NCBI GenBank assembly: GCA_017464345.1 | Contig: JAFUAH010000006.1 | Span: 124,001 to 188,000 of the forward strand | Source of the DNA: Bacteroidaceae bacterium | GTDB lineage: Bacteria > Bacteroidota > Bacteroidia > Bacteroidales > Bacteroidaceae | Length of the DNA stretch: 64,000 nucleotides | Direction of reading: 5' to 3' | Part shown: positions 1,456-22,366 of the stretch, one piece after another | Numbering within the stretch: the stretch's first letter is position 1 | How the letters are laid out: every line of letters begins with the position of its first letter | Position numbers and translations under genes: made by a program | The notes under the pieces: generated by a model | What the model saw: only the letters and a program-made list of their open reading frames with translations | Told to the model about the DNA's origin: nothing | Database searches by the model: none

Positions 1456-1459
1456 ATGC

Positions 1460-2699: not shown

Positions 2700-2720
2700 C
2701 CCCCTTTTTTGCCCCTCCCT

Positions 2721-3160: not shown

Positions 3161-6100
3161 ATGGAACGGAAGATGTATTCGATGACAGAGGAGGCGAGGC
3201 AACTGGATTCCAACGAACATATAAGCGGGAGCCGACGGAAGTGGCGCGGCATGGTGCTGACCCTGCTGATGCTGCTTGTGGGCGGCTTCGCCAGCGAGGC
3301 GTGGGCCGTGGATGTGACGGTGAACTATGTGATAGTGGCACTGGACGGCAGTCGTGCGCTGACCATCAAGAACCAGTCGGCTACGGTGGGCGCAGACCTG
3401 CGGATGAGCACCCAACTGGCCAAGTACAAGAGTCCGATGGTGCTGGACAGCGAGTACAGTTTCTACACGACATTTGCCAATGCTCAGGCGCGTACGTCGG
3501 CCATTACCACGGTTCCGGCTACGGTGCCCGGGGACACGATATATGTCCGTTACACCTTTGAGCCTGCTAATGCCAGCCGCATCGGGCTGACGGACGGCGC
3601 ACTGTACAACATCCGCCGCGTGGGCGATGCTGCCAAGACGGGTGGCTCGACATCCTATCTGGTGCAGGACAATTATAGCACCGACATTTGTGCTTACTTC
3701 AGTGCCGGCAATAAGGCCAGTTTATATACAGGGGAGCAGTCGCTGAGGACGGGCCGGTTCATGTGGAAACTGAACGTCAAGGACCCGTACCAACTGACCA
3801 TCCAGACGCAGCGGGCAGACGATAAAAACTATGCTGACTGGTACCTGTCGGCCACTGGTGCGGGCGATGGCTTCAAGAACATCCGCCAGGTGCAGACGCT
3901 GGCCACAGCCCAGAAGAACAAGGTCTGGGCCTATGGCATCGTCCCCGGTGATGCCGACGGTGCGTATAAGCTCATCGTGTGCGACAATGCCACAGGACTG
4001 GTCTCGGCGGGTCTGGACGAGCAAGGGCATGGCTATCTGAACAATGCCCGCAGTGAGCGTCTGGACTATGCCGGATGGTCGAACCATACGGGCAGCAATA
4101 AGGTGGCCGACTATTCCGACCTGGAGTTCAAGGCAGTCAATGTCTATCACATCATCAACAAGGCAGGCCGGAAGGCCCTGTCCCTGGCGGCCGGTACCCT
4201 GACCACCCTGGCAGTCCCAGACGAGCTGAAGACGCCCTACATCACCAGCGATGCCAGTTATAAGTTCTTCGACACCCAGGAACATGCCCAGGCCTACAGC
4301 CGCGACGGATCCACGACAGGCGAGATTACGACCGTCGGGGAGATACAGGGGACGTCGGTATACATCGGTTATCAGTGGGACGGCACTGTCCCCTCGGGGC
4401 TGCCAAGGCTCGATGGCACTTCTTGGCACCAGGTGCTCTCCGACTCCGGCAACAAGTATTTCATCACCTCCGGAGCCACCCATACCTCCACGACCAACAC
4501 CGCCACGGTGGGCACGGACTATCCCTATCTGTGGAGCTTCATGGGCGGCGACCCTTATGACATCATCCTCGCAAACCTGGCCGCCAACGAGAGCAATGGC
4601 TCCACCTATCAGCTGGCCTTGTCCGACAACTATAAGGCCTATGATACCCAGTACGGCTGGTACCGCCTCCGCATGTCGGCAAGCGGCGGTTTCTCCACGA
4701 TGATTGTAAACAGCGGCACCGCCGGCAGGTATAACCTGATAACCCTCTCTTCCGACGGCTTTGTGGGCACGGAGAACTACGTGCGTGCCCTTTGGTCCAA
4801 TAACAATGACGTGCTGTTCATTCGTCTGGGTGCCAGCTACAAAAACAATTCGGATGCCAGATACCGTTTCCAGTTCCCCGAAGTGCCCATTGCACAGGTT
4901 AAGTTCCATCTGACCACACAGCTGGGCGGTGTGGAACTGACCGCCATGCAGACCGTTGTTGACTATGCCTCCGTAACCATCGCGCTGCCAGAGAACTTGC
5001 GACGCAAGTACTGTTCCTACACGTTCTATCCGACCCCGGCTGATGCCGATGCGGGGACGAACCCCCTTACGACCTACGATGACGTGGTTGCGAACTGTAC
5101 CCCGGAGGACGGTGTATATCAGGTCTATGTGAAGTACGCCGTGGGTGTACTTCCTTTTGAGAGAAGCACGGACTATGCCACGGCTCACTGGTATCGTATG
5201 ACGGCCGAGGGGGCTGCCTATACCCGGTGGAGCGGATCGCAATTAGTGGCCGGTGGGGATGGGCTGAGCAACACCGTCTATACCCACGACTATCAGTATG
5301 CCTTCGAAGGCGACCCTTACGAACTGCGCCTGATGAACCGCGAGGGCGGCGAGGGGAACTATCTGGGCGTATCGGCATCGCCGAACAATGGTGACGACAT
5401 CACGCCGCGTTCTTCGGGTATGCTGACGTGGGAAATCGTAGATGATGGAACCACCAGCAATACCTTCCAGTTGCGTGCTTTCGGCACAGCCGGAACTGCC
5501 ACTCCCTATTACGCTGGTTATACGTCGGGTGCGGCCAAGTATTACATCAGTGCCATGACGATGGGTGTAGAGGAACTGCCCGAGCGCACTTACACCTACT
5601 ACATCGTGGACAATACAGGCCGCCTGGCCATCAGTGCCGAGGTGTCGCAGCGCGTGACCACCCCCATCACCTTCCAGAGCCTGCCTGCCACCATCCGCAG
5701 TCCCTATATTGAGGACGAGGAGCTGACGGCCTATCTGGCAAAGACATCCCTCGGCGTGTCCTATAGCCGTACCACCTACAGTCTCTCCTCTCTTACGGAC
5801 GAGACCCCCATTACGGCTGAGGGCAGCAACACCGACATCTATATCCGTTACACCACCGACCACTTGCAGGAGAAGACCCTGCGCATAAACGGCAAGCGCA
5901 GCTACAACGTCGTGAGGGTGAGCGGCAGCGAGTATGTGCACTCTGTGAGCGAATCGGCAGTAGGCTATAACTCATCGGCCACCTTGGACAATAAGCGGGA
6001 TAAGGCTTACTTGTGGAGTATGGCAGGCAATGACCCCTACGCTGTCCTGCTGCAAAACACCCAGCAGGCGGGCAAGTATTTCACGATTAATACTTCGTCC

Positions 6101-9100
6101 TATCCACCCGCATTCTCCCTGGGCAGTGTGAGCGGTACGTCCAGTGCCAATACATTCTTCATCCTGATGGCTGGCAGTTCTTCGGATGAGACACAGGTGA
6201 AGCTGATGGCAGCCACGGGCACCTCAATTACGGGTGCTGAGGAATTGCGCTTTGAGAACAACTTGCCCACAGCCCATTACTATATCATTGACCGGCAACA
6301 CAAGGTGGTCATTGATGCAGAGGCCTCCGGCGATGCCTCGGATCTGGAGGTTCCGGTGTCGATTCAGAGCCCCTTGGTGTCGCGGTATCACTACTGGAAG
6401 TTCCAGTCCTTATCGGCCAATGCTAATGGTAGCGGTACACCTAATGTCCTTGATGCCGATGCCACTTATTATGTGAAAGGCGGCGAAACTGAAATCACCA
6501 GCATCGGTGAAGCACTGGGCGGTGGCGACATCCATATTTATTGCACTTACGATGTGGCCGACGAGGACATGTTTGCTAACGCCAAGCACTATCGCGCCAA
6601 AGGCTATGACGAGGGCAAGGAGGAAGTGGATGACGGCAATGGCAACAAGGTCAATACCAATGCCACGGCGCCCATGTACCTACTGAAGTTCCTGCACGGA
6701 GAAAGTTTCTATCAGGAGGACGGCCACGATGCCCTCATGGGCACGGCCCAGAAGGCCGTCTATCCCTACAATAACGGTGATGCTGGTCTCTACGTCTATG
6801 GCCAGGAACAGTGGGAGACGCAGTTGGAGAGCGCAGCCACCACTCGTGGCCGTTGGCCGTGGTATCTGGAGAGTGAGACCCTAGACCCTTATCACGTCTA
6901 TGTATCCTCGCGTCAGTCGCAGGCCGGCAGTTATTCCTATCTCCGTACTTACAAGCCACAGGACTATAGCGAGATTGTAACGGGCGTCATCACGTTGGCC
7001 GACACGGTGAAGTTATCCAGCAAGAACCCCGACAAATACACCCGCCAGAAACCCACCGAGTACATGATACTGGGTACGACGGGCCATGGCCGCTTCGTGA
7101 CGGTGGAAAAGGTGGCCATAGACCTGAATAGCGACGGCGATACAGAAGATAGTGATGAGAACGAACGTCGTACAGTGACCAGTTTTGAGCAATACTGGAA
7201 GAACAACCCCACGGCCAATAACCTGCTGGAAGCCGCCGGAAAGGGAAGGGTCACGGCCAACGAGGAAAGTGTCAGTCTGACCTCTGCCCAACAGAACTAT
7301 TTGGAAAATACGGACATCGCACGTCGAAAGGGAGAATGGCACCAGTACAAGGCCTGGGCCAACTCTGCACCTTGGACCAAGCGAACTGACGGTACCACGA
7401 ACAAGAAGTACGAGTATAAGGACCACTGGTTCCAGACTATTTCGATGGGCGATGGCGAATTTGCCTTGGAGGAGACTTCACTCTCTGCCGTTCTGGTATT
7501 GTTGGACCAGCACGGATGGGAGATTGTCCGTTTGAATTTGCCTAACGGCCCCGACGACCCCATGCGAGCCGAGCGATATGCAGCCATGCAGAAGTACAGT
7601 AGCCCTATGGTAAAGGCTTACCACTACTGGAAGACCGGTTCCAAGGTGCCCGGCTATCACAAGTTCAAAGTATCAGACTATGCCGTGGACGAGAATGAAC
7701 AGGAATACACCTCTGCCAAACTGGGTTTCTTGGAACCCGACGAGGACGGTGTCTATCGCGGTTTGCTACCCAACTACGAACTGCAAGGTAAGGTGGGCAA
7801 CATGAGTCGTGACTGGTATGTGACCTACGAGGTGAAGGACGAGTACGCTGACAGCTATCGTGCCGCAGCCACGGAAGGGGCCACCCAAGCCTCGGCCTTC
7901 ATGTTGGGGCAGGGCAACGGCACCACGACCCTCTGGGCTACGACGACCGATGGTAATGATATCACTACCGATGTCACTCCTACCGAGTACGACGACATTA
8001 GCGACCAGATGCTTTGGTATTTGCATCCCAACTTCAACATAGACCGTGAGATGGGCTATCTCTACAAGGGTCAGGCTGGCGCGCAGGATGATGCCCTGAC
8101 CAAGGTAGAGACCGATGCTGAGAACTATGCTAATGGTGTCAATGGCTTTGACCCCTACAACGTGCAGATTCAGAACAAGGCCTATCAGAATAAGTACATC
8201 ACCACCAATGCCGCCTCTGCTGCACTGGTGGCGGGACTCTGGCAGGGCCCGGAGTCTGGTACCATCACCATCGGCTTGCAGACCCTGGATGTCCGTTTTA
8301 CGGCTATGGGACATGATCAAAAGACCATCCAGGGATCCAATGCGACCTTCATGGTTGTGGACGATGGGCATGGTAACATGCGTCTGATGCCTCGTTTCGA
8401 CCACAATCGCGTGGTGCAGGCATTGAGCACTGTGGTGGCCCAGGCTGCCGCTGCTGCTACCGGGGACAAGAAGGGTGTGCAGACTACCCTGCTGACTCAT
8501 CCGACCGAATACACTTATCACGTGGTCAATAAAAATGGGCGTGAGGCCATCACCTACAAGAAGCAATATTTCAGTCCTGATGCTTTCAGCCCTGATGAAC
8601 ACTTCCCCGACGAACTCCGTGCCTACGGGGCCAAGAATTTCCGCTACTATCCGCTGTCCGAGTTCGACCCCGACCCCCTCTCCCGTGGTGTATATCGGTT
8701 GGTATCTGGTACACCCGCATCTCTGGACACCTATGCAGTTTTCGGAAACAAGGGTGATGTGTTCGTGATGTACGACTTGGATGACTCGAAGCTGCTCAGC
8801 AGTCTCTATAACTTGAAACTCAACGACACCAACTTCCTCCACTACGATGCTTCGGGTAACACCACATCGGCAACGGCCACGAGTCTCGATACAGACGAAA
8901 CGAAGGATCAGGAAAACATCTGGCGCATTGCTACCAACAATGGCGACCCCTACGACGTGCGCCTTTACAATTTCCGTCAGCCTGATATCCCGATGAGTGT
9001 GGCCACGCTGGGCACCTCGCCCACGGCCACAGAGAATCAGACCTATCAGACCTTTATCCTTACGGCCCAGGATGCTGCCAACATGAAATTCCGCCTCTTG

Positions 9101-12100
9101 GCCACCCATTCCGAGTCTGCCACCAGCGACCTGACTCCATACGCTTATCTTGGTCTCTCAGGCACCACCCCGCAGGTGCTGACCACGTCTCCCCAGTGGT
9201 TCAAGCTTTATCCTGTGACATTGGGCTTCACCTATAAACTCTACGATCTTGCTGGTAACCTGACGCTGCAAAGCACCGTGTCCGATGTCACCGACATGAC
9301 GCCCGCTCTGCCTCAGGTGATGAAGAGTCCCCTGGTGAAACAGTACTATTATTATCGCGACGAGGCTCAGGCCATACCCATCACCTCCCTGGCTTCGACC
9401 GTAGATAACATCGTATATGTGGGTTACGAACCTTATCCTCTTGAAGAAGCTTCACTGAAGTTGGATGGCTCAGAGCCCTATACGCTCTTCGACAAAGATC
9501 ATCCCTCCAACCTCTATGCCCTGAACAACGGAACCACGGGCGACGTGCGGCGGCAAAGTTCCATTTACCTGCGTGAACCCTACTACAGATGGTACCTGAC
9601 GGCACGCCAGGTGGACGGGAAGTACGACCCCTACGATGTTACCCTCACCACCGGCTACAACAATTATGCCTGGAGTAACAATATGGTGGAATACGTGAAC
9701 GAGGCTACAACGACAGGCTCCCACAACCTCAGTTTGCAACCCACGACCAGTCACCGCTACATGATTATGACCGGTGTGAAGGAAGACGGCATACAGTATG
9801 TGGAAATCCTGCAAAAGAAAGTAGATAGCAAGGGCTATCGCCCCAACTGTACGAACCGATACCAGTACGTTTATTACAATAATGACGGTCGCCTGAATGC
9901 CGGCCAGGGAGCTTCATACGTTCACGAGAACGCTAACATGCAGTTCCGCTTCCAGCCCGCCTACACTTATCATGTGCTGAACCTGCAGGGCAAGGAGGCC
10001 GTATCCACCATTGTGGGTCGGATGCTGAAGAGCGATACCGAATTAGAGTTGGAAGATGTCATCAAGAGTCCGTTGGTGGATACCTACCACTACTATGACG
10101 CAACCTCCTTCGATGTCTCAGCCGATGGTGTCTATACGCTAAAGAGTACGGCCAAGGAACTGACCCTGCTCTCCGAAGCCAAGACGGTGGACATCTATGT
10201 CACCTATGGCAAGCATGAGATTAACAACCTCATTGACCTGAACGGGCAGACGGCCTACAATATGATTACGGGTACGCCGGCCAGTGGTACACACGGGTCC
10301 TACACATGGTACGATGCCGAGGCGCGAAGCCTGAAGGGTACCAATCAATACTACAGAAACGGAGCGTATGTGACAGATGCCAATCCCGATGCCGAAGCAC
10401 AGAAGACACGCCCCTACCTGTGGCGATTCTTCGGCGGCGACCCCTATGCCCTAACCATCCAAAATGCCCTTTACACCGACCGCTACATCTATCGTGGCAA
10501 TGGTGTGAACCAGTATGGCTCTGTTCTCAACCTCGGTACGACGAATGATGAGAATTTCCGCACCTTCATCCTTACTGGGACGAAGGACGACACCAGCACA
10601 ACCGAGGATGACGACTTCAAGTTCCAAATCATGGGTTCTGGCATCTATTCGCAGACCAACAACACTTACAAGTGCAAGTTCCAGTATCTGGGCCGCAATG
10701 TTACGGACAATCCCCATCGTAACCACACAGGCATCGAACTCTGGGGCTTCGAGTTCGGCTGGGGCGACTTCATCTATGGCACGAGCATTGTCAGGGTGAA
10801 GTTGCAACCCCAGAATCAGGGCAAGATAACGTATATCGTCCTGAACAAGCGCGGTGATGAGGCCGTCCACTATAGAGTAGATGCAACACAAAAGCTGCCG
10901 CCCGAACTCCCAGCCGCCATCAAGAGCCCATACGCCAAAAACTTCAAATACTATACCTCCGATGCCAAGACCACGGAGATTATATCGGACAACGCAGATA
11001 CCTACATGGTGGATGGCGCAGAGGTATATGTTACCTACGATGCCGACACGGATGCGCTGGCCGATGCCGCACTAGACTTGACGGGTAGCGATTCTTATAA
11101 CCTCTGGACAAACGGCGTCTATCTCTACAACGCCTCTGCCGCAGATGATGACAAGATTGTGACCGATGCCAGCCCTGCCCGCTATGACGACACGATGCAT
11201 GAGTGGTATCTTGTGGGCAACGGCAATCCGGAAAATGTGCTCGACCCTTACAATGTGCACCTGAAGAGCAAGCAAAAGCCGACGAAGTACATCGAGATGG
11301 CCACCTACGACCCAGACATGCCAGGCAACACACTGAGCTCCATAATAGCCCATAGTGACGGAAATGAGGTGCCTGCCTTCATTCTTATGGATGGGCAGCC
11401 CGGCAATCTGGAACTACTGGCAGCCACGGGAGCGAAAACCAATCAGGCAGCAGCCGATGACGAGATAGACAACCGTCTGATGTATCTGGGCTACTATGCC
11501 GAACCACAGTTGATGGGTCCGGGCAGTGACCCGCTCCACCCTGTTAATCGGAGTGGCATGAACCAGGTGCAGATTCGTCTGAAACAGCCTCTGTCAGGTG
11601 TGGTTTATCATATCATCAACCTTAATAATGTCGAGGTTGTGCAATACACGGTAGCGGCCTCCAAGGGTGATGCCCTGGCCGTGCCTGAGCCTATCCGCAG
11701 TCCTTTTGCAACTCAGTGGAATTACTACAGTGATGCCGCTTGCACACAGTCACTGTCCGCCGTGCCCAGTGCCGGTTCTGACATATATGTAACCTATGTT
11801 TATGACGATGCTACGGCCACACACCTGCAATTGGACGGCCAGCGCTTCTACAACCTCAGTGTAGCCAACGGTTACATTCAGGAGAATGAAGGTAGTATTT
11901 CAGTGTTGGAGCAAACGACACTCTCCTCCGAAGAAGCCAACGTTGCGGCTAATCTGTGGGCCTTCGACGGTCAGACGGCGAGCAAAGGCATAGACCCTTA
12001 TGGACTGAATCTGCTGAACAAACCCTACAATGACATCGTTGCCGGTGCAGCGTTGTCCTACGTGTCGGACACGGGGAACCCCATGCAGATGAGCGATGGC

Positions 12101-15100
12101 GAGACGGAAAATTTCCATTCGACTTTCTTCCTTGTCGGTTCAGATCCGGCTGGCCCCTACGAAATGGTATTGGCCTCGGGTCAGAACATTACAAACAACG
12201 TATTGGCTTACGTGAGCCGTCAGGAGGAGACCACCGTCAGTCTGACTCGCGATGCCGCCTATCAACATGAGAACGCTGCTTTGCAAATCCGGCTGACCTC
12301 TCCCGTAAATCTTTACCTCTACAAAGTGCAGGACCGCAGTGGCAATGTGGCCATCCAAGCTTGGGGCGAGGGTGTGGCCGGTGCCATACCGGAGATACCT
12401 TCCGTTATCAAAAGTCCATTAGTGTCTCGTTTCTATTACGATGTGGAATCATTGCCCTACACTACGGGAGAGGACGAAGTGGTGGTGACTTATGACGTGG
12501 ATGACGAAACAACATTGCAACCCTATCTCAATGGTGCAAAACTCTATAACCTGATGCTTCGCGATAGCTGTTACATGAAGTCGAGTGGTACGGATGTTTC
12601 TTTGGAGCAAGATACCAAGCAAAGTAACTTGGGTACACCAGCTACTGTCGTGGGCGGTGGTAATGATCCGTATATCTGGAAACCATCGGCCAACATGGGC
12701 GATGGCAGGTTGGATCCCTATGCCATCATACTGCGTCACAGCAATGACAATGTACTGTGCTCCAGCAGCAGTAGCTTAAGCCTCGGCACTAATGACATCG
12801 TCCTTGCCACTACGCCTGGTGCCGGGACATACCAGAAGTTTATTCTGCTCGAAGGTTCCGATGGTCGCTACCAGTTCATGGCTGCTACGGGCGAAGACCT
12901 AGATAGCAAACCAGATCAAAACCTGTTCGCCTATCTCGGTGTTACTGGTGACAACCAAGCCAAGCTACTCATTGGTAATACTTATGCTCAGGATCGTGCC
13001 GCCATTCAGATGGAACTGGTGCCTTTCCAGTACACTTATACCTATGTGGTGGTGAACAACAATCGCTACGAGGCCATCCGCAATGAGTCCGTACACGATG
13101 CTGGCGACCCCGTCAGTCTGCCCCTCGGCCTGAACTCGCCGTTGATAGATGCCAACAAATATACCTACTATACACCAGAAGCCTTTACGACAACTGGCGA
13201 CTGGGGCACCACCCGCTTTGAATATGCCGCAGACTCCGCTTCGCACACCATCAGTACGCTGCCTTATAACAATCAGACTATCTATGTGCGTTATAAATAC
13301 ACTCCGACGGCGGGTGGACTGGACATTGGCAATACTGGGGAAGCACCTAAAGTGAAGTATCAGGTGGGCTACATCACCAGCGATATGCAGCGCTATCTCT
13401 ATGCCAATACGGCAGGAAACGTGAAAGACATCTACACTGCCAGTGCGCCCAGTTCGAATGCCAATTACCTCTGGAAACTGGATGGTAACGGCGACCCCTA
13501 CGACGTAAGGATAATCAATATGCACGACAACCGCAGTGGCGATGTGCTTGACCTGAGAGAAGTATGGTGGTATAGCAAAAATGGTAATACCTCCTTATCG
13601 TGGAGTGGGCGTGCTCCCTATCCTCACATGTATCCGGAAGAGGGTGATCCTGTGACATATACGGTGGCCGTCGATGGCGAGAACAATGTGACGGGCACCA
13701 ATAAGACGACGCGCTTCGCCATCGTCGAACATCCTGACGGAGGCTATCGTTTGATGCTCATTGCTCCGTTCACCTGGCACGACGAACTGGATGGCGTTGA
13801 TAGGGGAAACACTAATTTCGGAACCTATTTCTTGTTTAACCTCAGCAGTAACCGCTTCACTTCCATCTCCACGAGCAGTTCGACACCTGAAAGCGGCGAC
13901 CCCATTTACTTCATTCCAGCCACTACGCACAACTACCGTTTCCACCTGACCACAAAGATTGAGGAGCGTACGCTTGTTGTAGATAAGGAGAAGCAGATGG
14001 TGCGCGACCTCTTCAGCTTGCCGGAGGAACTGCAGCGCAAATACTGCACCTACACCTATAAATACTATACGACCGACGCTGACGAAGACCATAGGGAGCC
14101 CGTGGAGAAGGGCACGTTGGGCGCAGTAGAGCGAGAGGTCGAGGCCGACAACTTCGGCATTACCTATTATCCCTATTTCCCTGCGATTGATGGCGACAAT
14201 TCCAAGTGGGTAGATATCTATGTGGATTACGAGGTCATACCCAAAGGTGAGCCTAATGGCATTCCCTTCAACTTGATGACCAGTGACCGTGCCCGTACAC
14301 AAGCACTGTTCGACCCCAGCAGTGGCATTCTGGATGTGGCCTTCGACTTGACCTCTTATGACAAGATGGTGGAAACGCTCTCGTGGACTGGCCTGCGCCG
14401 GTGCGACTACCTCTACTTTATGGTGCTGAAGACTAACAACGATTATTCGAACAATAACGGTCAGTACTTCCTGCGCCGTGAGAGCAACGGCCGCATATCA
14501 TGGTTGAACAATGATTTTCGACTTTACCAGGATAGTGAGAAGAACTACAACAAGTGGCCATACGCCCGCTGTGCCGAGGCCTATCGTGAGAACGACCACG
14601 ACCCCTTCCAGGAGAAACGATGGCTGTGGAGCTTCGCCGGCGATCCATACGACCTGTACATATTCAATACCAGTGCCGCCGTGGAGGAAACCTACAATGC
14701 AATCACGGGTGAGACAACATTCAATACCCACCGTGACCATCTGGTAAGTTACCAGACACTGGTCAGCACATCGGGCACCACCACAGAGCATATGGTGAAC
14801 ACCCCGGGCTATGAGGAACTGGCCCCGAGACGTTATCTTTGGGGATTGGCAGAAGGCCAGGGGGCGAACTCCAGTCAGACATTCAGTCTCATAACGAGCG
14901 AGTTCCAGTACGATGAGGAAGACGATGTCTATAGGAATCCTGCTATACCGAATATAGAGGAAAAGCCTCTGTATTGGCGTATGGACAAGTCAGTGGTGGA
15001 GGGTGCGACAGAGGTGATGCTACAGCCCCGTGCCCAGACCAATACCACACTGGACTATAATTTGCAGGTACTGCCCTTCGAGCCTACAAAGTTCGTGGAT

Positions 15101-18100
15101 TTGCGTTTCATTGTCAGACGTGATGACGAGGTGGGAAAGACCACCGACGACAAGAGCAAGGGCACCTATCTGGGCAACTATCCGGTGTCTGTGGCCGACT
15201 CCATCAGTTCGGGCTTAATCCTGCCCGGGGACGCTGCTGCCAAATCGCAGGCAAGTAGCCAGTTCATCGACCGTCTGTCCTCTGGTACAGTGCGCATGTT
15301 CTACGAACTCACCGACCGTATGTTTGCCGCAGGTGATGTCATTGACACCGAACATCCCGAGACATTGCCGCTTGAATTGCGGAGGCAGTTCTGTAACTAC
15401 ACAGTCTATACGGACGACTATCGCAGCACGGGAGACTATACGGTGAGTGGTGACTACTTCCGTGGTACCCCGCAGACCGACCCGGTGACGGGAGATCCCA
15501 TCTATAACGAGGCGGGTATGCTGATGTACAACTTCTTCAAGTATCAGAGAGACGGCTCAGGAAATCTAATCCTTCTGCCCTCAGGCGACCCCCTTGTCGT
15601 GGGCACTGCTCCGCAGACTATCTATGTGAAGTATGAGGTGACAACAGACAAATTCCTGAAGAAGCGTCCGACGAAGGAGGAAGTGGATGAGATGTTGGCT
15701 AACAATGACCATGTCTATTTCATGGATTTCGCCAATCCCAACCTGATGAAGGGACAGAAACTGGGCTACAACACGGGACACCATACCTACTACGACGAGA
15801 AAACTACCTTCGAAGGGCAGATAGGCCGACTATACGGAGGCTTGAGTGCTGAAAAACGAATCTGGGATGGGACTCAATTTGTGGACGATACGAACCAGCG
15901 CTTCAACTATTGCCACTACAGGACCACGACCAATCGCATGGAGTCGGTTCCCGAGAATCTGAAATGGTACTTCGTGGGCGACCCCTATAAACTGCAGGTC
16001 TATTGTACGCATGATGAGTTTAATAAGGAGACCGTCCGGTTGGATGGAGAGGATTGTACGCCAGGCACGGTGCCCTCCAACCTCTGCCGTTTCGACCCGA
16101 CGGAGAGCAATTTCCAGTTCGTGGTGGACTGCGTGCATTTCCGCACTCCAGACGAGAACTTCATCGACGAACGCAGGACGCTGGACTATATTGATGCCGA
16201 CGGAAACAACATCACGGTGGAAAATGCCAATTATGGCAAACCCTACTACGATAACTTCTACTGGGAGGTGGTGCCCACTACAACGGACGACAAGGAAGCC
16301 TTTGCCCTGCGCTTCCGTGCTGACAATCAGATTCTGGGTTACCGTAATGTATTCTATTATCTGGCCCACGATGGTCTGAAACGCACATATCGCGAAGCCC
16401 GGAGCGATAACCCCAAGGCCTACAACATCAACCTGAGTTATGACGAAAACAACACACGCCACCTGTCAGGCAGATACGTGGGTTACCATCAAGCCAATGA
16501 CGTAAATTGTGTCATTCGCCTTACGCAGCCGACGAAAATCTACTTCACAGCCTACAAAGAGACGTATGGCGGACAGCCCGTAGTGAAGGAAGAACTGTCG
16601 GAGTACTTTGGTCTCGGTGAGACGCTGACCGAGGTGCCGCGCCACTTACAGCGCAAGTTCGTAAAGTACGGCAATCTGGAGTATCAGACATCTTCGCCTG
16701 ACACGTGGCACACCGCATCGTTCCCCTTCACGATGTACAACGATTCGGCTTATAACTTAGAGAATTGTAATCTTGTAGACCCCGTCCATACCATCGCTAA
16801 TGAGTGGGTGCACCAGGAAGGGGCGTATGGGGAAAATTTGGCCGTAACAGGCAACTACACCAAGACCCGCGCTTCCTTTAAGTTCCGTGTCACTTACGAG
16901 GTGGACGACATGACAAAAGATGGCATTCACCTTTTCACTACCCCAGCTGAGTTTGCCAATGCCAGTGTGCAGCCCCAGTGGCTTGACGTGACGGTGGGGG
17001 GCAACAACTGGATGTACTACGACAAAGCCAACCTGGATGCTGAGAAAATGGAGAATGATACGCTGCGTGTCAGTCGTTATCCAACCTCAGCAATAGCCGA
17101 ACAGGCAAATTCGGGTTGGGGTACGGGTCTGAAGGGATTGCATTGGGCCTTTATTGGAGACCCCTACAAGTTCAACATCATCAACCGTCGCCGCTGGGAG
17201 GACGTGGGCAGTCCGCGCACCGAGGTCGATGGCAGCAACTTCTGGCTCGGAACAGACTATGGTCAGCACAATCAGCTAGAGGGCGGTGTGTACAAGTACT
17301 ATAATTACACCCAGCTGGGTGATACGAAGGAGAACAACGCCTATAATAGTGACGACACGGAGAATGGTAATACGGAGTGGAGTCTGATGATGTGCAAGAC
17401 GGGCGGTACGTCCGACTATTTCTTACGCACGGCCTCATTGAAGACCACTTCTGTAGATGATTTGGTGGGCGATTACAGCAATGATCATGCCCCGTCGAAC
17501 ATGACCAATAACTATGCCCGTATCGTGCGTAAGGACTTCACGAACTTGGACGGTTCGGCCGATCCTCAGAAGAGCGCCTACGTGCTGGAGACCTTCAGTC
17601 TTGACACCAAGACCAACGAGATACACAAGGCCGAAATACGTACGGCTGTAGCTAAGGACGAGGATGGAGCTAATAATGATTGCTTCGATGCCACGGTGCA
17701 CATCTACAACACCGCAGGTGAACTGAAGGCTACGCTGAAGCATGTGGAGGTTGTATACGGCGATGTAGTGAATTCCCTGCCCAAGACGCTGAAACGTTAC
17801 GGCTGTAATTACATCGAGTGTTACCAGATATACCATCTGGGCTACACTGAAGAAATGCTGAAGGATCCCACTTCGGCTGCTACTGTAGCCCGAACGGAAT
17901 ACATCAAGAACACGGTGGCCAACCTGAATAACTTCACGGGAGCCAATCTGATGGGCAGTATCAAGACATTCAGCGATGCCACGTTGGATCGCAGTAAGGT
18001 CATCACCGACATCAATGGACGCAAGTACATAGAGGTGGCTTATGTCTATGAGGTGGAAGACGATGTGGCCCGCTTCTTCACATCCGTCGAAGATGCTCAG

Positions 18101-21100
18101 CAGGACAACTATTATTGGTCCAATGCCTACTACCAGTGGGATCAAACCTATAAGGGTACCAATGTGCGTGTAGTGACCTATGAGAATGTTTTTGACCATT
18201 ACGAGTATAACTCTGACGGACACATTGTCAATGAGGTGTACAAGCAAGTGGAAAAGGTGGAATATAGGTCAGGTGAGGAAATATCCACTCCGGCCTACGG
18301 ATGGCTCAATAGCCACGTAGGCGTGAGTCAGGCTTATGGCGACGAGACAACACAGAGTGAGGACAACCGGCAGAAGTGGAGTTTCGTAGGTGACCCATAT
18401 GACTTTGAACTGAAGAACTATTCTCAGTATCTGGAGAACTCCCATTCGGCCTTCACTTATGCGAAAAACAATGATCTGAATCGTAACGAACTGAATGCTT
18501 CTGACACTCAGAACAGCCACTGGGCCATAGTGCAGGGTTTGCAGAAGACTGCGGTGGTGAACGGCAAGACCGTGAAGGTGGTGGATGAAGAGGGTAATCC
18601 TGTCTATGTCTACTATCTGGCTCTGATTGATGACGAGACGGGACTGGCCACGGACTTCGTGACCTTCGACCGTGCAGCCGAGAACCGGGATTTGCCCAGT
18701 TCTGAACAGAACCTTTTCATGAAAGGGAGTCCTCTGGAGGACGATCCTACGGGAAACTTCTATAACAATGCGACTAAGGAGGTACGCCCCTTCTATCTGG
18801 CCGATCTGCAGAGCTATGCCAACTGGGTGGTCTACCATCTGGTCATTGCTCACCAGCATTCGCTCGACTATACTGACGACTTCGACACTGAACTGACCAC
18901 AGCGGCACAGCGCACTGAGGCTAAGCGCATCATTGACCAACATCTGGTGGAGTGGCTGAAGTACAACTATCCCTCCTACATGCAGACCACCACCGTCTCG
19001 GATGGTACGAGGAACTACACGAAGGTGACCGAGCAATTTCTGCCGACCTATGTAGCAACAGGCGAAGGTAAAGTCACTGCTGATCAACCCCTGAAAGGAC
19101 AGTTGAAGACGAGCACGATAACCGAAATAGAGAAACTGCTGAAGACGGCTTCGCTGCGTGACGTCGTAAACGACAGCATTAGCGACTACAGCGTGCAGCG
19201 CGTGGGTATTGGCAACACGCTCACCGTGCCTTGGTACATGAAGCGCCAGTTCTGCAACTACAAACTCTACCAACGTGACGTTCTGCGTTCAGTCACCAGC
19301 ACACGACCGGCCTATGAGGAGGATGGCGTGACACAGAAGACCTTCATCGACCCCGAGACTGGTGAGGAGAAACCAGCTTATGAGGTAGACTGGGTGTCGG
19401 TGACAGAAGAACCTGAGGCACGCGACTATGCTACTGTCGTGGCGGAGAACGGCAATCTCATCACCAAACTCAATGCCAGCCACCGCAATCGCATGGTGGT
19501 GGTGGACGTGGTCTATACCATCAATGATGATGAATTCCGCTTCTCTGACAAGGGACGTAATACCACAGCCTGGTACTCCATGCTGACACAAAACGACAAT
19601 GACGGCCTGATGAACTTCTCCTATCGCGAAGGCATTGGTGCCCGACATGGCCGTGAAGTCCACTACACCAACAACTATCTGTGGGCCCCCGAGGGCGACC
19701 CCTATGGTTTCGTCATGCATTCACGCTATGCTACGGTGAATGGTACTGGCTGGGACGATGTGGTGGTGACCACGGCGGGCAAGCTGCCTACGGCAGTTGA
19801 TGCCGTCAAGGACAAGGTGGGTACCATCGACTATGCTACTGCCTACTCGCCTGGTGAAACGCTGGACAAGGCCGACAGCGACGGTGCTGTCTATACGGGG
19901 TACTATGGCAACATTCGCTATCTCCATGACCGCATTACTCACCCAGGGCGTGGTACTTTGCGCCCCACATGGGGAGCCCGCAATGCCGTGTATGAGATGT
20001 TTGCCGGCAATTACGAACGTACCTTCCTCATGCATCCTACCAGTGCTTATGTGGATGTCAGCGGCGACAAGTTTGGCTCCTTCTACATGGTGCACAATAC
20101 CTCGCGCCACGGTGCAGAACTGCATTACTATAATGATGCCAAGACCATACGCAGTGACAAGGATGCCAACTGGCGCATGATGACCACGCCCGAACAGCTG
20201 TTGCCCTATTTCAGTCGGTCGGGCTACGTGGGAGGTTTGGAGCCAGACATTGCCAACCGTTTCGAGAACCAGTCGCTCTACAGTACACTGCGCTACTATA
20301 AAGACAACTACCGCACCAATCCCTTGGTTATCGATTTTAAGACGATAGACAGTGCACGTGAGTTGGTCTACGGCGGCAAGTTCTACAAGAACGGCGGTGC
20401 CGAACTCGACTATACCGACCGTCGGCCCACGGAGGCTGACGACCTGCCACTGACCTTTGTCTCCAACAATCTGAAGCCTCTGCAGCAGGGCTACTATCGC
20501 ATTGTGGCCTTCTCGCGTGATGCCTTGGACAAGGATGCTGAGGATCTGGACGGTACGGGCATCACGGGCATACAGGGCCCGCGCTATATCAGTGGCTACC
20601 GATTCAAGTCGGAACGTGAGTTTGAGGGCTATGTGGATGATGACGAAAATGATGCCACCCCCATGAAACTGAAGGCGGGCAGTCGCTGTCTCCACTTCAT
20701 CGAGACTGACGAAGAGCATACTACACTGAAGACCTTCGAAGAACTGAATGCCAAAATACGCAGTCTGGAGGGCAGCAGTCACTACGAGCGCGACATCGAG
20801 CCTCATCCGGCCATGCGAGGTAACATAGAGATTCTGCCTGCCGAGTATGACCCCAGCAGTATCTTCTACTTCCAGCCCACGGGGGACAAATACAACCGCT
20901 TCCGCTTCGGCACACAGGGATTGCAGGTTGTGGGTACGGTAGGGCAGACCCGACTGGACGATATGGGAACGGGCACAGACTTCCGCATGGACGACATTGG
21001 CGGTACGGCGGTCACCATGCGTGTCCTGGCTGCTACGCCTTCCGATGCTGACAGTGACCACACGTGGGATTCTGACGTGACCAGCGGCGTGGCGCAGAAC

Positions 21101-22366
21101 TTGCAGACCCACTACCTTTGTATCGATCCCACACACCGCTATCGCATCACCGTGAATGCCAACAACGAGATGAAGGAGATAGGTGACAGCTATGGTGCCA
21201 CGACGGAGGACTACTGGAAACTCTCGGACATCAACTATGGCATCCAGGACACCAAATGGCTTCTGCAGCCCGTGGGCACGCAGACGGAGTGGCCCTATAA
21301 TGAGAAGCCACTCAGTGTCCGTGTGAACAAGGGTGGACACAAGCCCGACCCGTCGACGGGGTATGGACTGGCAGGAACGGAGAACGAGGACAACAACTAC
21401 TATGCCTCGCTCTATGTGCCCTTCGACAGCCGTCTGTCGAAGACCATCGACGCTGCCTTCACCAACACCAACGAGGCTCCGTCTCCCAAGGCTCTGACGC
21501 TGAAGTCCGTCAGCCAGCTTAACAACATGGATAACCCGCAGTTCATCCCGGCCGGCTGGCCCGTGATCTTGCGCACTAGCCAGCCCGTCACCTCCATCAC
21601 CAAGGAAGACGGTTCCATGATGAAGACAGACCCGCATGTAGACCTCTACCTGCCCAATCCCACACCTACCAGCATTCCCGAGAACTATGCCAAGATAAAT
21701 CTCTACGGACAGTATCTGGAGCAAGAGCTGACATCCGATGTCATTACGGCACAGACCAATGATGTCTGCAAGGCTGAGGCTATCCGGCGCACGATAGCTG
21801 CCGACCATCAGTTTGTGATGGTAGTGGGCCTGCCCTTTGCCGAGGAAGGTACCAATAATATGTATGGCGACGCGAACTATTCGCGCGACTTCTATGCTTA
21901 CAAGACAGCTGATGCTGTAGGCTTTTATGCTAACAAGAACTGGCAGCGAGGCTACTATGACGCTTCGTCCAAAGAGAACAACGGCGTGGGCACGGCAGAA
22001 CTGTTCGAAGCTTTGTCCCAATCGGAGCAGTCAGTACGCATCCAGAGCCACTGGGCTACGGCCCGCAAGGCCACCTCTGAGCAACGAGAAAACAAGTATG
22101 TCTATCACAACCGCGCCTACTTCGTTCACGACTACGAGCCTTCGTCGCCTGGGGTGAAGGAGGACGACTTCTTCTTCTTCCTCTTCGACGATGTCGAGCA
22201 GCCCGCGATGGAGGATGGACTGCTGCCCCTGGTGCCCCGTTGGGGTGTCTATGACCTCAGCGGTCGTCTGGTACGCAGCCGGGAGGCCGTGCTCAACGGT
22301 ACGTGGCGGCGTAACCTGCCCCCGGGCATGTACATCGTGAACGGACGCAAGATGCCAGTAAGGTAA
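3161..22366 (+). CDS. Giant 6,401-residue T9SS-secreted surface protein with 18 repeated modules
   Basis: Signal peptide: hydrophobic core MVLTLLMLLVGGF, likely cleaved after SEAWA (residue 49). The body contains 18 divergent modules of about 240-450 residues. Each has part A, a segment of the form Y-hydrophobic-N-x-x-G-x-x-A, then LP-x-x-I-K-S-P-L-V-x-x-Y-x-Y-Y and a strand IYVTY, and part B, L-D-G-x-x-Y-N-L, a W, then GDPYDV-x-L-x-N and a FILM/LMAATG stretch. DPY marks fall near residues 208, 463, 717, 957, 1241, 1663, 1928, 2155, 2426, 2695, 2943, 3184, 3444, 3827, 4273, 4666, 5077 and 5512. A YYASLYVPFD region precedes a T9SS sorting tail (GVYDLSGRLV, then PPGMYIVNGRKMPV). I recognise no named family for the module; part A recalls MucBP-like beta-grasp repeats only by layout. 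Likely a cell-surface adhesin or binding filament. It shares an operon with the lipoprotein gene 29 bp downstream. Confidence 0.88.
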   Translation: MERKMYSMTEEARQLDSNEHISGSRRKWRGMVLTLLMLLVGGFASEAWAVDVTVNYVIVALDGSRALTIKNQSATVGADLRMSTQLAKYKSPMVLDSEYSFYTTFANAQARTSAITTVPATVPGDTIYVRYTFEPANASRIGLTDGALYNIRRVGDAAKTGGSTSYLVQDNYSTDICAYFSAGNKASLYTGEQSLRTGRFMWKLNVKDPYQLTIQTQRADDKNYADWYLSATGAGDGFKNIRQVQTLATAQKNKVWAYGIVPGDADGAYKLIVCDNATGLVSAGLDEQGHGYLNNARSERLDYAGWSNHTGSNKVADYSDLEFKAVNVYHIINKAGRKALSLAAGTLTTLAVPDELKTPYITSDASYKFFDTQEHAQAYSRDGSTTGEITTVGEIQGTSVYIGYQWDGTVPSGLPRLDGTSWHQVLSDSGNKYFITSGATHTSTTNTATVGTDYPYLWSFMGGDPYDIILANLAANESNGSTYQLALSDNYKAYDTQYGWYRLRMSASGGFSTMIVNSGTAGRYNLITLSSDGFVGTENYVRALWSNNNDVLFIRLGASYKNNSDARYRFQFPEVPIAQVKFHLTTQLGGVELTAMQTVVDYASVTIALPENLRRKYCSYTFYPTPADADAGTNPLTTYDDVVANCTPEDGVYQVYVKYAVGVLPFERSTDYATAHWYRMTAEGAAYTRWSGSQLVAGGDGLSNTVYTHDYQYAFEGDPYELRLMNREGGEGNYLGVSASPNNGDDITPRSSGMLTWEIVDDGTTSNTFQLRAFGTAGTATPYYAGYTSGAAKYYISAMTMGVEELPERTYTYYIVDNTGRLAISAEVSQRVTTPITFQSLPATIRSPYIEDEELTAYLAKTSLGVSYSRTTYSLSSLTDETPITAEGSNTDIYIRYTTDHLQEKTLRINGKRSYNVVRVSGSEYVHSVSESAVGYNSSATLDNKRDKAYLWSMAGNDPYAVLLQNTQQAGKYFTINTSSYPPAFSLGSVSGTSSANTFFILMAGSSSDETQVKLMAATGTSITGAEELRFENNLPTAHYYIIDRQHKVVIDAEASGDASDLEVPVSIQSPLVSRYHYWKFQSLSANANGSGTPNVLDADATYYVKGGETEITSIGEALGGGDIHIYCTYDVADEDMFANAKHYRAKGYDEGKEEVDDGNGNKVNTNATAPMYLLKFLHGESFYQEDGHDALMGTAQKAVYPYNNGDAGLYVYGQEQWETQLESAATTRGRWPWYLESETLDPYHVYVSSRQSQAGSYSYLRTYKPQDYSEIVTGVITLADTVKLSSKNPDKYTRQKPTEYMILGTTGHGRFVTVEKVAIDLNSDGDTEDSDENERRTVTSFEQYWKNNPTANNLLEAAGKGRVTANEESVSLTSAQQNYLENTDIARRKGEWHQYKAWANSAPWTKRTDGTTNKKYEYKDHWFQTISMGDGEFALEETSLSAVLVLLDQHGWEIVRLNLPNGPDDPMRAERYAAMQKYSSPMVKAYHYWKTGSKVPGYHKFKVSDYAVDENEQEYTSAKLGFLEPDEDGVYRGLLPNYELQGKVGNMSRDWYVTYEVKDEYADSYRAAATEGATQASAFMLGQGNGTTTLWATTTDGNDITTDVTPTEYDDISDQMLWYLHPNFNIDREMGYLYKGQAGAQDDALTKVETDAENYANGVNGFDPYNVQIQNKAYQNKYITTNAASAALVAGLWQGPESGTITIGLQTLDVRFTAMGHDQKTIQGSNATFMVVDDGHGNMRLMPRFDHNRVVQALSTVVAQAAAAATGDKKGVQTTLLTHPTEYTYHVVNKNGREAITYKKQYFSPDAFSPDEHFPDELRAYGAKNFRYYPLSEFDPDPLSRGVYRLVSGTPASLDTYAVFGNKGDVFVMYDLDDSKLLSSLYNLKLNDTNFLHYDASGNTTSATATSLDTDETKDQENIWRIATNNGDPYDVRLYNFRQPDIPMSVATLGTSPTATENQTYQTFILTAQDAANMKFRLLATHSESATSDLTPYAYLGLSGTTPQVLTTSPQWFKLYPVTLGFTYKLYDLAGNLTLQSTVSDVTDMTPALPQVMKSPLVKQYYYYRDEAQAIPITSLASTVDNIVYVGYEPYPLEEASLKLDGSEPYTLFDKDHPSNLYALNNGTTGDVRRQSSIYLREPYYRWYLTARQVDGKYDPYDVTLTTGYNNYAWSNNMVEYVNEATTTGSHNLSLQPTTSHRYMIMTGVKEDGIQYVEILQKKVDSKGYRPNCTNRYQYVYYNNDGRLNAGQGASYVHENANMQFRFQPAYTYHVLNLQGKEAVSTIVGRMLKSDTELELEDVIKSPLVDTYHYYDATSFDVSADGVYTLKSTAKELTLLSEAKTVDIYVTYGKHEINNLIDLNGQTAYNMITGTPASGTHGSYTWYDAEARSLKGTNQYYRNGAYVTDANPDAEAQKTRPYLWRFFGGDPYALTIQNALYTDRYIYRGNGVNQYGSVLNLGTTNDENFRTFILTGTKDDTSTTEDDDFKFQIMGSGIYSQTNNTYKCKFQYLGRNVTDNPHRNHTGIELWGFEFGWGDFIYGTSIVRVKLQPQNQGKITYIVLNKRGDEAVHYRVDATQKLPPELPAAIKSPYAKNFKYYTSDAKTTEIISDNADTYMVDGAEVYVTYDADTDALADAALDLTGSDSYNLWTNGVYLYNASAADDDKIVTDASPARYDDTMHEWYLVGNGNPENVLDPYNVHLKSKQKPTKYIEMATYDPDMPGNTLSSIIAHSDGNEVPAFILMDGQPGNLELLAATGAKTNQAAADDEIDNRLMYLGYYAEPQLMGPGSDPLHPVNRSGMNQVQIRLKQPLSGVVYHIINLNNVEVVQYTVAASKGDALAVPEPIRSPFATQWNYYSDAACTQSLSAVPSAGSDIYVTYVYDDATATHLQLDGQRFYNLSVANGYIQENEGSISVLEQTTLSSEEANVAANLWAFDGQTASKGIDPYGLNLLNKPYNDIVAGAALSYVSDTGNPMQMSDGETENFHSTFFLVGSDPAGPYEMVLASGQNITNNVLAYVSRQEETTVSLTRDAAYQHENAALQIRLTSPVNLYLYKVQDRSGNVAIQAWGEGVAGAIPEIPSVIKSPLVSRFYYDVESLPYTTGEDEVVVTYDVDDETTLQPYLNGAKLYNLMLRDSCYMKSSGTDVSLEQDTKQSNLGTPATVVGGGNDPYIWKPSANMGDGRLDPYAIILRHSNDNVLCSSSSSLSLGTNDIVLATTPGAGTYQKFILLEGSDGRYQFMAATGEDLDSKPDQNLFAYLGVTGDNQAKLLIGNTYAQDRAAIQMELVPFQYTYTYVVVNNNRYEAIRNESVHDAGDPVSLPLGLNSPLIDANKYTYYTPEAFTTTGDWGTTRFEYAADSASHTISTLPYNNQTIYVRYKYTPTAGGLDIGNTGEAPKVKYQVGYITSDMQRYLYANTAGNVKDIYTASAPSSNANYLWKLDGNGDPYDVRIINMHDNRSGDVLDLREVWWYSKNGNTSLSWSGRAPYPHMYPEEGDPVTYTVAVDGENNVTGTNKTTRFAIVEHPDGGYRLMLIAPFTWHDELDGVDRGNTNFGTYFLFNLSSNRFTSISTSSSTPESGDPIYFIPATTHNYRFHLTTKIEERTLVVDKEKQMVRDLFSLPEELQRKYCTYTYKYYTTDADEDHREPVEKGTLGAVEREVEADNFGITYYPYFPAIDGDNSKWVDIYVDYEVIPKGEPNGIPFNLMTSDRARTQALFDPSSGILDVAFDLTSYDKMVETLSWTGLRRCDYLYFMVLKTNNDYSNNNGQYFLRRESNGRISWLNNDFRLYQDSEKNYNKWPYARCAEAYRENDHDPFQEKRWLWSFAGDPYDLYIFNTSAAVEETYNAITGETTFNTHRDHLVSYQTLVSTSGTTTEHMVNTPGYEELAPRRYLWGLAEGQGANSSQTFSLITSEFQYDEEDDVYRNPAIPNIEEKPLYWRMDKSVVEGATEVMLQPRAQTNTTLDYNLQVLPFEPTKFVDLRFIVRRDDEVGKTTDDKSKGTYLGNYPVSVADSISSGLILPGDAAAKSQASSQFIDRLSSGTVRMFYELTDRMFAAGDVIDTEHPETLPLELRRQFCNYTVYTDDYRSTGDYTVSGDYFRGTPQTDPVTGDPIYNEAGMLMYNFFKYQRDGSGNLILLPSGDPLVVGTAPQTIYVKYEVTTDKFLKKRPTKEEVDEMLANNDHVYFMDFANPNLMKGQKLGYNTGHHTYYDEKTTFEGQIGRLYGGLSAEKRIWDGTQFVDDTNQRFNYCHYRTTTNRMESVPENLKWYFVGDPYKLQVYCTHDEFNKETVRLDGEDCTPGTVPSNLCRFDPTESNFQFVVDCVHFRTPDENFIDERRTLDYIDADGNNITVENANYGKPYYDNFYWEVVPTTTDDKEAFALRFRADNQILGYRNVFYYLAHDGLKRTYREARSDNPKAYNINLSYDENNTRHLSGRYVGYHQANDVNCVIRLTQPTKIYFTAYKETYGGQPVVKEELSEYFGLGETLTEVPRHLQRKFVKYGNLEYQTSSPDTWHTASFPFTMYNDSAYNLENCNLVDPVHTIANEWVHQEGAYGENLAVTGNYTKTRASFKFRVTYEVDDMTKDGIHLFTTPAEFANASVQPQWLDVTVGGNNWMYYDKANLDAEKMENDTLRVSRYPTSAIAEQANSGWGTGLKGLHWAFIGDPYKFNIINRRRWEDVGSPRTEVDGSNFWLGTDYGQHNQLEGGVYKYYNYTQLGDTKENNAYNSDDTENGNTEWSLMMCKTGGTSDYFLRTASLKTTSVDDLVGDYSNDHAPSNMTNNYARIVRKDFTNLDGSADPQKSAYVLETFSLDTKTNEIHKAEIRTAVAKDEDGANNDCFDATVHIYNTAGELKATLKHVEVVYGDVVNSLPKTLKRYGCNYIECYQIYHLGYTEEMLKDPTSAATVARTEYIKNTVANLNNFTGANLMGSIKTFSDATLDRSKVITDINGRKYIEVAYVYEVEDDVARFFTSVEDAQQDNYYWSNAYYQWDQTYKGTNVRVVTYENVFDHYEYNSDGHIVNEVYKQVEKVEYRSGEEISTPAYGWLNSHVGVSQAYGDETTQSEDNRQKWSFVGDPYDFELKNYSQYLENSHSAFTYAKNNDLNRNELNASDTQNSHWAIVQGLQKTAVVNGKTVKVVDEEGNPVYVYYLALIDDETGLATDFVTFDRAAENRDLPSSEQNLFMKGSPLEDDPTGNFYNNATKEVRPFYLADLQSYANWVVYHLVIAHQHSLDYTDDFDTELTTAAQRTEAKRIIDQHLVEWLKYNYPSYMQTTTVSDGTRNYTKVTEQFLPTYVATGEGKVTADQPLKGQLKTSTITEIEKLLKTASLRDVVNDSISDYSVQRVGIGNTLTVPWYMKRQFCNYKLYQRDVLRSVTSTRPAYEEDGVTQKTFIDPETGEEKPAYEVDWVSVTEEPEARDYATVVAENGNLITKLNASHRNRMVVVDVVYTINDDEFRFSDKGRNTTAWYSMLTQNDNDGLMNFSYREGIGARHGREVHYTNNYLWAPEGDPYGFVMHSRYATVNGTGWDDVVVTTAGKLPTAVDAVKDKVGTIDYATAYSPGETLDKADSDGAVYTGYYGNIRYLHDRITHPGRGTLRPTWGARNAVYEMFAGNYERTFLMHPTSAYVDVSGDKFGSFYMVHNTSRHGAELHYYNDAKTIRSDKDANWRMMTTPEQLLPYFSRSGYVGGLEPDIANRFENQSLYSTLRYYKDNYRTNPLVIDFKTIDSARELVYGGKFYKNGGAELDYTDRRPTEADDLPLTFVSNNLKPLQQGYYRIVAFSRDALDKDAEDLDGTGITGIQGPRYISGYRFKSEREFEGYVDDDENDATPMKLKAGSRCLHFIETDEEHTTLKTFEELNAKIRSLEGSSHYERDIEPHPAMRGNIEILPAEYDPSSIFYFQPTGDKYNRFRFGTQGLQVVGTVGQTRLDDMGTGTDFRMDDIGGTAVTMRVLAATPSDADSDHTWDSDVTSGVAQNLQTHYLCIDPTHRYRITVNANNEMKEIGDSYGATTEDYWKLSDINYGIQDTKWLLQPVGTQTEWPYNEKPLSVRVNKGGHKPDPSTGYGLAGTENEDNNYYASLYVPFDSRLSKTIDAAFTNTNEAPSPKALTLKSVSQLNNMDNPQFIPAGWPVILRTSQPVTSITKEDGSMMKTDPHVDLYLPNPTPTSIPENYAKINLYGQYLEQELTSDVITAQTNDVCKAEAIRRTIAADHQFVMVVGLPFAEEGTNNMYGDANYSRDFYAYKTADAVGFYANKNWQRGYYDASSKENNGVGTAELFEALSQSEQSVRIQSHWATARKATSEQRENKYVYHNRAYFVHDYEPSSPGVKEDDFFFFLFDDVEQPAMEDGLLPLVPRWGVYDLSGRLVRSREAVLNGTWRRNLPPGMYIVNGRKMPVR

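Follow-up and report, generated by a model that had tools for sequence, protein, structure and literature searches.

The window examined here, by which we mean the whole 64,000-nucleotide stretch of DNA, is dominated by one giant gene (Table 1). Its frame is uninterrupted over 6,401 codons, the sole stop being the terminal one, and it takes up 19,206 of the 64,000 bases; the initial annotation had described a single gene, open throughout and filling 30% of the window, and this is accurate. The promoter-like motif upstream of the start codon was called from what we take to be the Bacteroidales promoter consensus behind TTTG-N20-TATCTTTG. Within the 64 kb, the pattern TTTG-N19..22-TANNTTTG occurs twice on the forward strand and once on the reverse strand.

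Table 1. Features of the giant gene, its units and its neighbors (window positions unless a locus is named)
Feature	Position	Strand	Remark
Promoter-like motif, Bacteroidales-type	3022..3053	+	Ends 107 nt 5' of start codon
Giant gene, 6,401 aa, 719 kDa, pI 4.9 (computed)	3161..22366	+	ATG start
Signal peptide region, aa 1-49	3161..3307	+	Hydropathy
Units 1-13, N-terminal array	3311..13900	+	Unevenly alignable between species
Unit 1	3311-4135	+	HMM
Unit 2	4136-4885	+	HMM
Unit 3	4889-5560	+	HMM
Unit 4	5582-6274	+	HMM
Unit 5	6263-7426	+	HMM
Unit 6	7484-8488	+	HMM
Core trio, units 4-5-6	5582..8488	+	BLAST matches/alignment with relatives
Unit 7	8501-9196	+	HMM
Unit 8	9218-9964	+	HMM
Unit 9	9953-10816	+	HMM
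Unit 10	10817-11599	+	HMM
Unit 11	11591-12319	+	HMM
Unit 12	12305-13033	+	HMM
Unit 13	13028-13900	+	HMM
Units 14-18, conserved in position	13925..20185	+	Aligned unit by unit with five other giants
Unit 14	13925-15163	+	HMM
Unit 15	15320-16570	+	HMM
Unit 16	16544-17689	+	HMM
Unit 17	17681-19096	+	HMM
Unit 18	19157-20185	+	HMM
Unit-free conserved C-terminal region, aa 5676-6300	20186..22060	+	Alignment with other giants
T9SS type A sorting signal-like tail	22247..22342	+	TIGR04183 below cut-off
LIP1, 573-aa lipoprotein	22396..24117	+	29 nt downstream of giant
LIP3, 1,155-aa lipoprotein-like protein	24295..27762	-	Counterparts beside giant elsewhere
LIP2, 477-aa lipoprotein-like protein	27713..29146	-	Counterparts beside giant elsewhere
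Tyrosine recombinase gene, beside convergent pair	1460-2623	-	Phage_integrase
RhuM-like ORFs	L033 (G002, before giant); L052 1767-2342; L053 6307-7227 and 14655-15500

The giant protein contains 18 two-part units, ordered and mostly back to back, in which a domain A of about 75 aa alternates with a domain B of about 150 aa. The units were delineated with an HMM seeded with 14 of the 18 and then iterated over nine frames, those of the giant and of eight relatives; the seed HMM gave 81 matches across the nine proteins in its first pass and 83 in later passes. Each giant unit scores 81 to 180 bits with the iterated HMM, a range that is partly circular because the model was trained on most units. 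Splitting the protein at its sequence marks and aligning the 18 pieces yielded a profile that recovers 18 units, so the two-part repeat proposed in the initial annotation is real. Its count of 18 DPY marks alternating with 18 SPLV- or RKYC-type marks in the A half is right but for two details. There are 19 literal DPY triplets, of which 18 are in register and one, at aa 3169 within unit 12, is surplus, and a regular expression finds the A mark 16 times, its forms in units 2 and 7 being degenerate (KTPYI and AYGAKN, recognized by eye). Across 333 units from the window and the fetched relatives, DPY is near-fixed (D 0.98, P 0.99, Y 1.00), and a Y close to the end of the A half reaches 0.98.

The host genome is metagenome-assembled and only 61% complete, which raises the suspicion that an assembly merge or chimera of several genes lies behind the giant frame. 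Five separate genomes, belonging to two genera by their database labels, nevertheless carry giants of their own, with open frames of 6,009 aa and 17 units (G252), 6,098 aa and 16 units (G002), 5,816 aa and 14 units (G343), 5,216 aa and 13 units (G355), and 5,293 aa and 13 units (G384). The window giant aligns with these at 34-41% identity over 4,552-5,135 columns. Three further open frames of 5,110-5,193 aa (L077, L078, and L080) have both ends within the fetched DNA. Because comparable giant frames stand in other genomes and loci, the merge that the initial annotation had allowed for is refuted, and we leave it next to no chance.

Unit matches were detected in 11 of 101 related genomes with a first profile and in 40 of 301 genomes of the family with a broader one, many of the 40 showing one or two matches, in frames about 700-1,600 aa long; a search with the last 2,813 aa of the giant found matches in 3 of 201 genomes. 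A profile search with alignment A3 returned 21 named loci from 20 MAGs that encode relatives, including contigs of the five genomes above. Their titles read Prevotella, Prevotellaceae, Bacteroidaceae or Bacteroidales in 20 cases and "uncultured bacterium" in one. Ruminant host names appear in 10 of the 21 titles, one locus comes from a rumen co-assembly, and five carry no host; another label, that of the RUG isolates (5 of 21), presumably denotes rumen origin.

We compared 135 units from 14 proteins, orthologous giants included, and found that the best BLAST match lies in another protein for 132 of them and in the same protein for 3. Since the best matches lie in other proteins, the units would have diverged before the species separated and largely kept their places; judged from these matches, the array is old and position-specific, not a young recombining repeat. 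Units 14-18 and the C-terminal region are 27-58% identical to each of the five other giants (49-58% for aa 5676-6090), and units 5 and 6 are 34-50% identical in four of these five. The trio of units 4-5-6 finds its best matches, in the same order, in units 1-2-3 of each of four 3-unit proteins and in units 3-4-5 of each of four 8-unit proteins; no such trio was detected in the G252 giant. Open frames of 7,892 and 7,859 aa encode the 3-unit proteins of G040 and G057, the rest of each showing VYGGG/VFGGG repeats in the parts read, and that of G030 spans 5,033 aa, of which 3,700 aa were read. Each of these three giant frames with VYGGG/VFGGG repeats (L031/L032, L035/L036, and L037) is directly preceded by another frame, at least 2,297-2,954 aa long, whose end is T9SS-like. 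The module is thus arranged as 13-18 or 8 units with fimbrillin-like partners, or as 3 units joined to a giant protein of VYGGG repeats. Neither the 8-unit nor the 3-unit paralogs figure in the initial annotation, which also passed over the conserved genes for fimbrillin-like partners and, immediately 5' of the giant, the inverted pair of fimbrillin-like genes.

No Pfam or NCBIfam family exceeded its cut-off on the giant, which was searched over its full length as three pieces. The C-terminal region gave nothing in Pfam at E<=1 and only NF002711 in NCBIfam (17.1 bits against a cut-off of 112). A match to LtfC at aa 76-152 (22.8 bits against 27) runs across the boundary between A and B, in unit 1 alone, and was for that reason taken as chance. 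Pfam searches with 45 units returned 27 families, almost every one of them in a single member; DnaJ_CXXCXGXG, with a best E of 1.9e-4 in one relative's unit, was taken as chance like the other single-member families. In the PDB, the first 2,000 aa of the giant found one match (E 0.067) and a profile of units 15-16 found none; units 15-16 also matched nothing in phage and plasmid collections. The alignments used comprised 45 of 83 units (A2) or 45 each of 110 picked (A4 and A5), and the comparison sets held 21 rows for PF14200 and 19 for Flg_new, with 30 loci each. The module had been said to match no family that could be named, and indeed no named family in Pfam or NCBIfam extends across the full unit.

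A match to a MucBP-like beta-grasp fold had been named as one that, with a lectin-like half, would support an adhesin. MucBP (PF06458) is absent among the matches listed for the 45 units (25 of the 27 Pfam families) and among the Pfam matches listed for 45 A domains, and it was found at E<=1e-4 in none of 148 genomes of the window's phylum; MucBP is not supported for domain A, and we set it aside. The Flg_new/InlB B-repeat family (PF09479) is close to the A half in length and gives a weak profile match, with E 0.0012 for one A alignment and 0.14 for another; with a third, none of 150 shuffles reached its score. An unrelated family, however, scores like PF09479 against that third alignment (13.5 vs 13.3), and PF09479 is not among the Pfam matches of the 45 A domains. 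We regard it as a weak lead that is indistinguishable from an unrelated control family. The A profile had six matches in the PDB, at E 0.72-9.4 and with no common theme.

For domain B, RicinB_lectin_2 (PF14200) is the Pfam family that matches the most members among the 45 units, namely three, with a best E of 0.015 that lies below the cut-off (an E of 0.024 was equivalent to 15.7 bits against a cut-off of 25.6); the giant has no PF14200 match at E<=1. In profile-profile comparisons, B scored 17.2 against PF14200 members and at most 12.0 in column shuffles (150 of 150 beaten); in a further comparison it reached 19.4-22.8, and none of the control alignments, unrelated or reversed, exceeded 13.1. 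The hhalign probability of the direct comparison is 3-5%. We also assembled a bridge set, A6, of eleven B-like domains from one- or two-copy proteins, selected by their match to the B profile. A6 matches B with 98% probability (E 1.4e-13) and aligns in register with PF14200 members over 118 columns (E 8.5e-4, hhalign probability 23.8%), with a score of 28.0 compared to at most 18.0 in shuffles (0 of 100 reach it) and 16.7 for an unrelated alignment; two of its eleven members match PF14200 directly (best E 0.019, below cut-off). In the PDB, the only match of B up to E 10 is the BEL beta-trefoil (E 9), and the only match of A6 is 7kcg, a "16 kDa salivary peptide" (E 0.037), which by its name is apparently a member of the mosquito 16 kDa salivary family. 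For the Culex 16 kDa salivary family, a beta-trefoil fold has been described (PMC10027276).

These comparisons make B a likely but unproven remote ricin-type beta-trefoil, lectin-like in character. We keep the assignment unproven because the lines of evidence are not fully independent, because the hhalign probabilities against PF14200 are low (at most 23.8%), and because column shuffles destroy beta-strand periodicity too. Of the two-part adhesin fold suggested in the initial annotation, the lectin-like half thus has a candidate in B, and the MucBP half is not supported. The near-invariant DPY sets the giant's units apart from PF14200, with which the in-register alignment is best made via A6. 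In 7 of the 11 A6 members DPY reads NPY, and P alone of the three letters is invariant, a pattern more in keeping with a turn in the structure than with a catalytic site. Elsewhere in the window, a further lectin-like protein of 1,211 aa (56994-60629, reverse strand) has RicinB_lectin_2 and CBM_4_9 above cut-off and FIVAR below. A-B or B modules also occur, singly or in twos, in frames of about 950-2,225 aa at L008, L010, L011, L021, L057, and L058; in some of these, FIVAR or a RicinB_lectin_2 match below threshold lies farther along. By profile similarity, the A-B and B modules in one- and two-copy proteins of the order constitute an unnamed domain family of wider spread.

The initial annotation had placed the giant at the cell surface on the strength of a signal peptide and a T9SS tail, and both signals find support, the tail with a score below the family cut-off. 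The most hydrophobic 15-residue stretch of the protein begins at aa 30 and is followed by ASEAWA up to aa 49, which we read, by hydropathy and by eye, as a Sec signal peptide. TIGR04183 matches aa 6363-6394 with 16.5 bits against a cut-off of 23; in a genome-wide search the tail scores 19.5 bits (E 0.0016), and six other places of the window's genome score above the cut-off. All five other giants and three 8-unit proteins share the motif order YDLSGR ... GMYIVNGRK, so a role of the tail as a T9SS signal stays likely; the motifs are missing at the ends of the 3-unit frames of G040, G057, and G254. GldL is above cut-off in 10 of 10 genomes carrying unit proteins. SprA (TIGR04189) had no match in these carriers and none in the control genomes either, so that its absence carries no weight. 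Export of the giant to the surface by the T9SS is therefore a supported, if remote, prediction.

Three lipoprotein or lipoprotein-like genes follow the giant. LIP1 is 36-47% identical to its counterparts in the five other giant loci. The G002 orthologue passes Mfa_like_1 (PF13149; 36.9 bits against a cut-off of 27), and we call the window LIP1 fimbrillin-like because it is 36% identical to that protein; LIP1 itself matches LPAM_1 only, below cut-off, and does not pass Mfa_like_1. Similarly, the G252 counterpart of LIP2 (33% identity) passes with 52.9 bits, and the window LIP2 has no Pfam match at E<=1. LIP3 has no Pfam match at that threshold in either the window or the G002 protein. Mfa_like_1 was passed by 5 of the 10 neighbor proteins scanned, and none of these five comes from the window's genome; all three of the tested neighbors of 8-unit proteins pass it (67.7-139 bits). 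None of the 10 was above an NCBIfam cut-off. The fimbrillin-like character of LIP1 and LIP2 is thus supported but remote, and the giant gene is a conserved neighbor of fimbrillin-like lipoprotein genes under a label that rests on the orthologues, not on the window proteins.

Of the 21 named loci, 17 hold the giant's end plus room for a neighbor and 4 end too early. In 15 of these 17 and in the window, a LIP1 homologue lies 3' of the giant and shares its strand; five of the 15 also supplied the LIP1 model, and ten are independent. The giant-LIP1 gap is 17-218 nt in the 11 loci with a start called by a crude rule. At L070, LIP1 is inverted and lies beyond another ORF, and at L068 no LIP1 homologue was found. 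The ORF between the giant and the inverted LIP1 (L070 17250-18320) resembles REP-associated transposases by eye, and the G002 locus has an ORF of this kind close to LIP1 (L054 6422-7717). In the other five giant loci, counterparts of LIP2 and LIP3 adjoin the giant, and at L072 the giant, LIP1, LIP2, and LIP3 all run in one direction. A second T9SS-type protein of at least 1,348-2,524 aa adjoins LIP2 in four of these five loci; a formyltransferase gene takes its place in the window. The gene on the giant's other side varies between loci (G355 and G384 share a region there, by eye), and conservation is therefore specific to the LIP side. ORF reading showed no fimbrillin-like neighbor beside the 3-unit proteins of G040, G057, G030, and G254, indicating that the module is not tied to fimbrillins everywhere.

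Upstream of the giant are two convergent fimbrillin-like genes (window 1-2941 together with L149 565-5442, C27:122064-126941). The pair is called fimbrillin-like because its left gene is 31% identical to LIP2; that gene has no Mfa_like_1 match of its own. The 5' coding ends of the pair form a 161-nt inverted repeat (95%; L149 635-795 and 3659-3819), of which the left copy has a start codon and the right copy is preceded in frame by two stops. The tyrosine recombinase gene beside them is flanked by 53-77-nt inverted repeats. Seen in one orientation, the pair and the recombinase look like a fimbrillin phase-variation switch; the promoter-like motif of the giant lies outside the pair. In three genomes, unit-bearing genes are immediately preceded by ORFs that we presume to be RhuM-like from a common N-terminal motif, the one in G002 being an open fragment in frame with the giant.

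We propose, with about an even chance of being right, that the giant is a very long secreted adhesin acting as an accessory or tip component of a type V-like fimbria together with the fimbrillin-like lipoproteins. The protein would cross the envelope via the T9SS and reach the surface, where each unit would present a small domain A alternating with a lectin-like beta-trefoil B. The 18 diverged units might then act as a multivalent arm whose sites differ, offering several glycan specificities and not 18 copies of one, a picture that the old, position-specific divergence of the units fits. Given that its conserved partners are fimbrillin-like, the giant probably works as an accessory or tip adhesin, as Mfa5 serves the Mfa1 fimbria, and from the precedent of Mfa5 as a T9SS-exported fimbria-tip protein we infer a surface adhesin system. 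The giant would be physically attached to the fimbria. It presumably binds glycans, and plant fiber, mucin or neighboring cells in the forestomach may be the ligand.

The strongest rival is a free-standing T9SS adhesin that anchors itself by type A CTD cleavage and surface glycan linkage, the lipoproteins of the same locus forming a separate structure. The giant's tail is in the type A style, T9SS cargo of Prevotella intermedia is cleaved and glycosylated at its C-terminus (PMC11969387), and the 3-unit relatives have no visible fimbrillin-like neighbor. Such independence does not sit well with a LIP1 gene that 15 of 17 testable loci and the window keep 3' of the giant and in its orientation, with the other side mostly variable, or with the conservation of LIP2 and LIP3, and we consider it possible but rather doubtful. 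A glycan-capturing scaffold for feeding, whose units would retain polysaccharide so that it can be degraded, instead of fixing the cell to a surface, appears improbable. Ricin-type trefoils often accompany carbohydrate-active enzymes, and the window contains a GH43 gene (32598-33851). This gene, however, is about 10 kb off, none was recognized by eye among the neighbors listed for the other giant loci, and Pfam found no enzyme family in the giant or in the neighbor proteins scanned.

Mfa5 of Porphyromonas gingivalis is a T9SS-exported member of the Mfa1 tip complex with clustered genes mfa1-5 (PMC5954841, PMC8313007), mfa5 is transcribed apart from mfa1-4 (PMC5954841), and Mfa5 genes measure 2.9-6.6 kb, with vWFA and Ig-like domains in genotypes A-C (PMC8313007). 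Likened by role and gene setting alone, the giant and Mfa5 are both large T9SS cargo encoded with fimbrillin lipoproteins; the giant differs in its 19.2 kb gene and 18 A-B units, and Pfam found no vWFA domain in it. SprB-type adhesins of gliding Bacteroidota are also very large T9SS surface adhesins, from which the giant is set apart, by description, by its fimbrillin-like partner genes. Outside the phylum of the window's organism, Apilactobacillus kunkeei offers a further likeness by description only, in size and surface setting. Its Giant1-5 are presented as extracellular proteins of 3,000-8,000 aa from an animal symbiont (PMC12863079). Neither the giant nor the A-B module is described in the literature searched (titles and starts of abstracts among the matches listed, outside subscription journals and preprints). 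The parts of the giant are of known kinds, namely T9SS cargo, a trefoil-like domain and fimbrillin-like partners; their combination and size are absent from that literature.

A tentative proposal, on balance unlikely, is that forestomach Prevotellaceae possess a type V-like fimbria of a new class. In place of a small tip lectin it would carry an arm exported by the T9SS, with 13-18 trefoil units each conserved individually (5,110-6,401 aa across the giants, 719 kDa in the window). The module would be reused in at least three architectures, and in the window's species the inverted gene pair beside the recombinase gene could vary the fimbria while the arm stays constant. To our knowledge, how dominant rumen Bacteroidota hold fiber, mucosa or each other is poorly known. 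The conserved locus of a giant and its lipoprotein partners, found in 20 named MAGs and ruminant- or rumen-labeled in 11 of 21 loci, provides a concrete attachment candidate, and the A-B unit is an unnamed domain family available for annotation. Mfa5 sets the precedent of T9SS cargo on a type V fimbria in one oral pathogen; if our preferred reading of the giant as a fimbrial accessory or tip adhesin is true, a family of giant proteins would join it.
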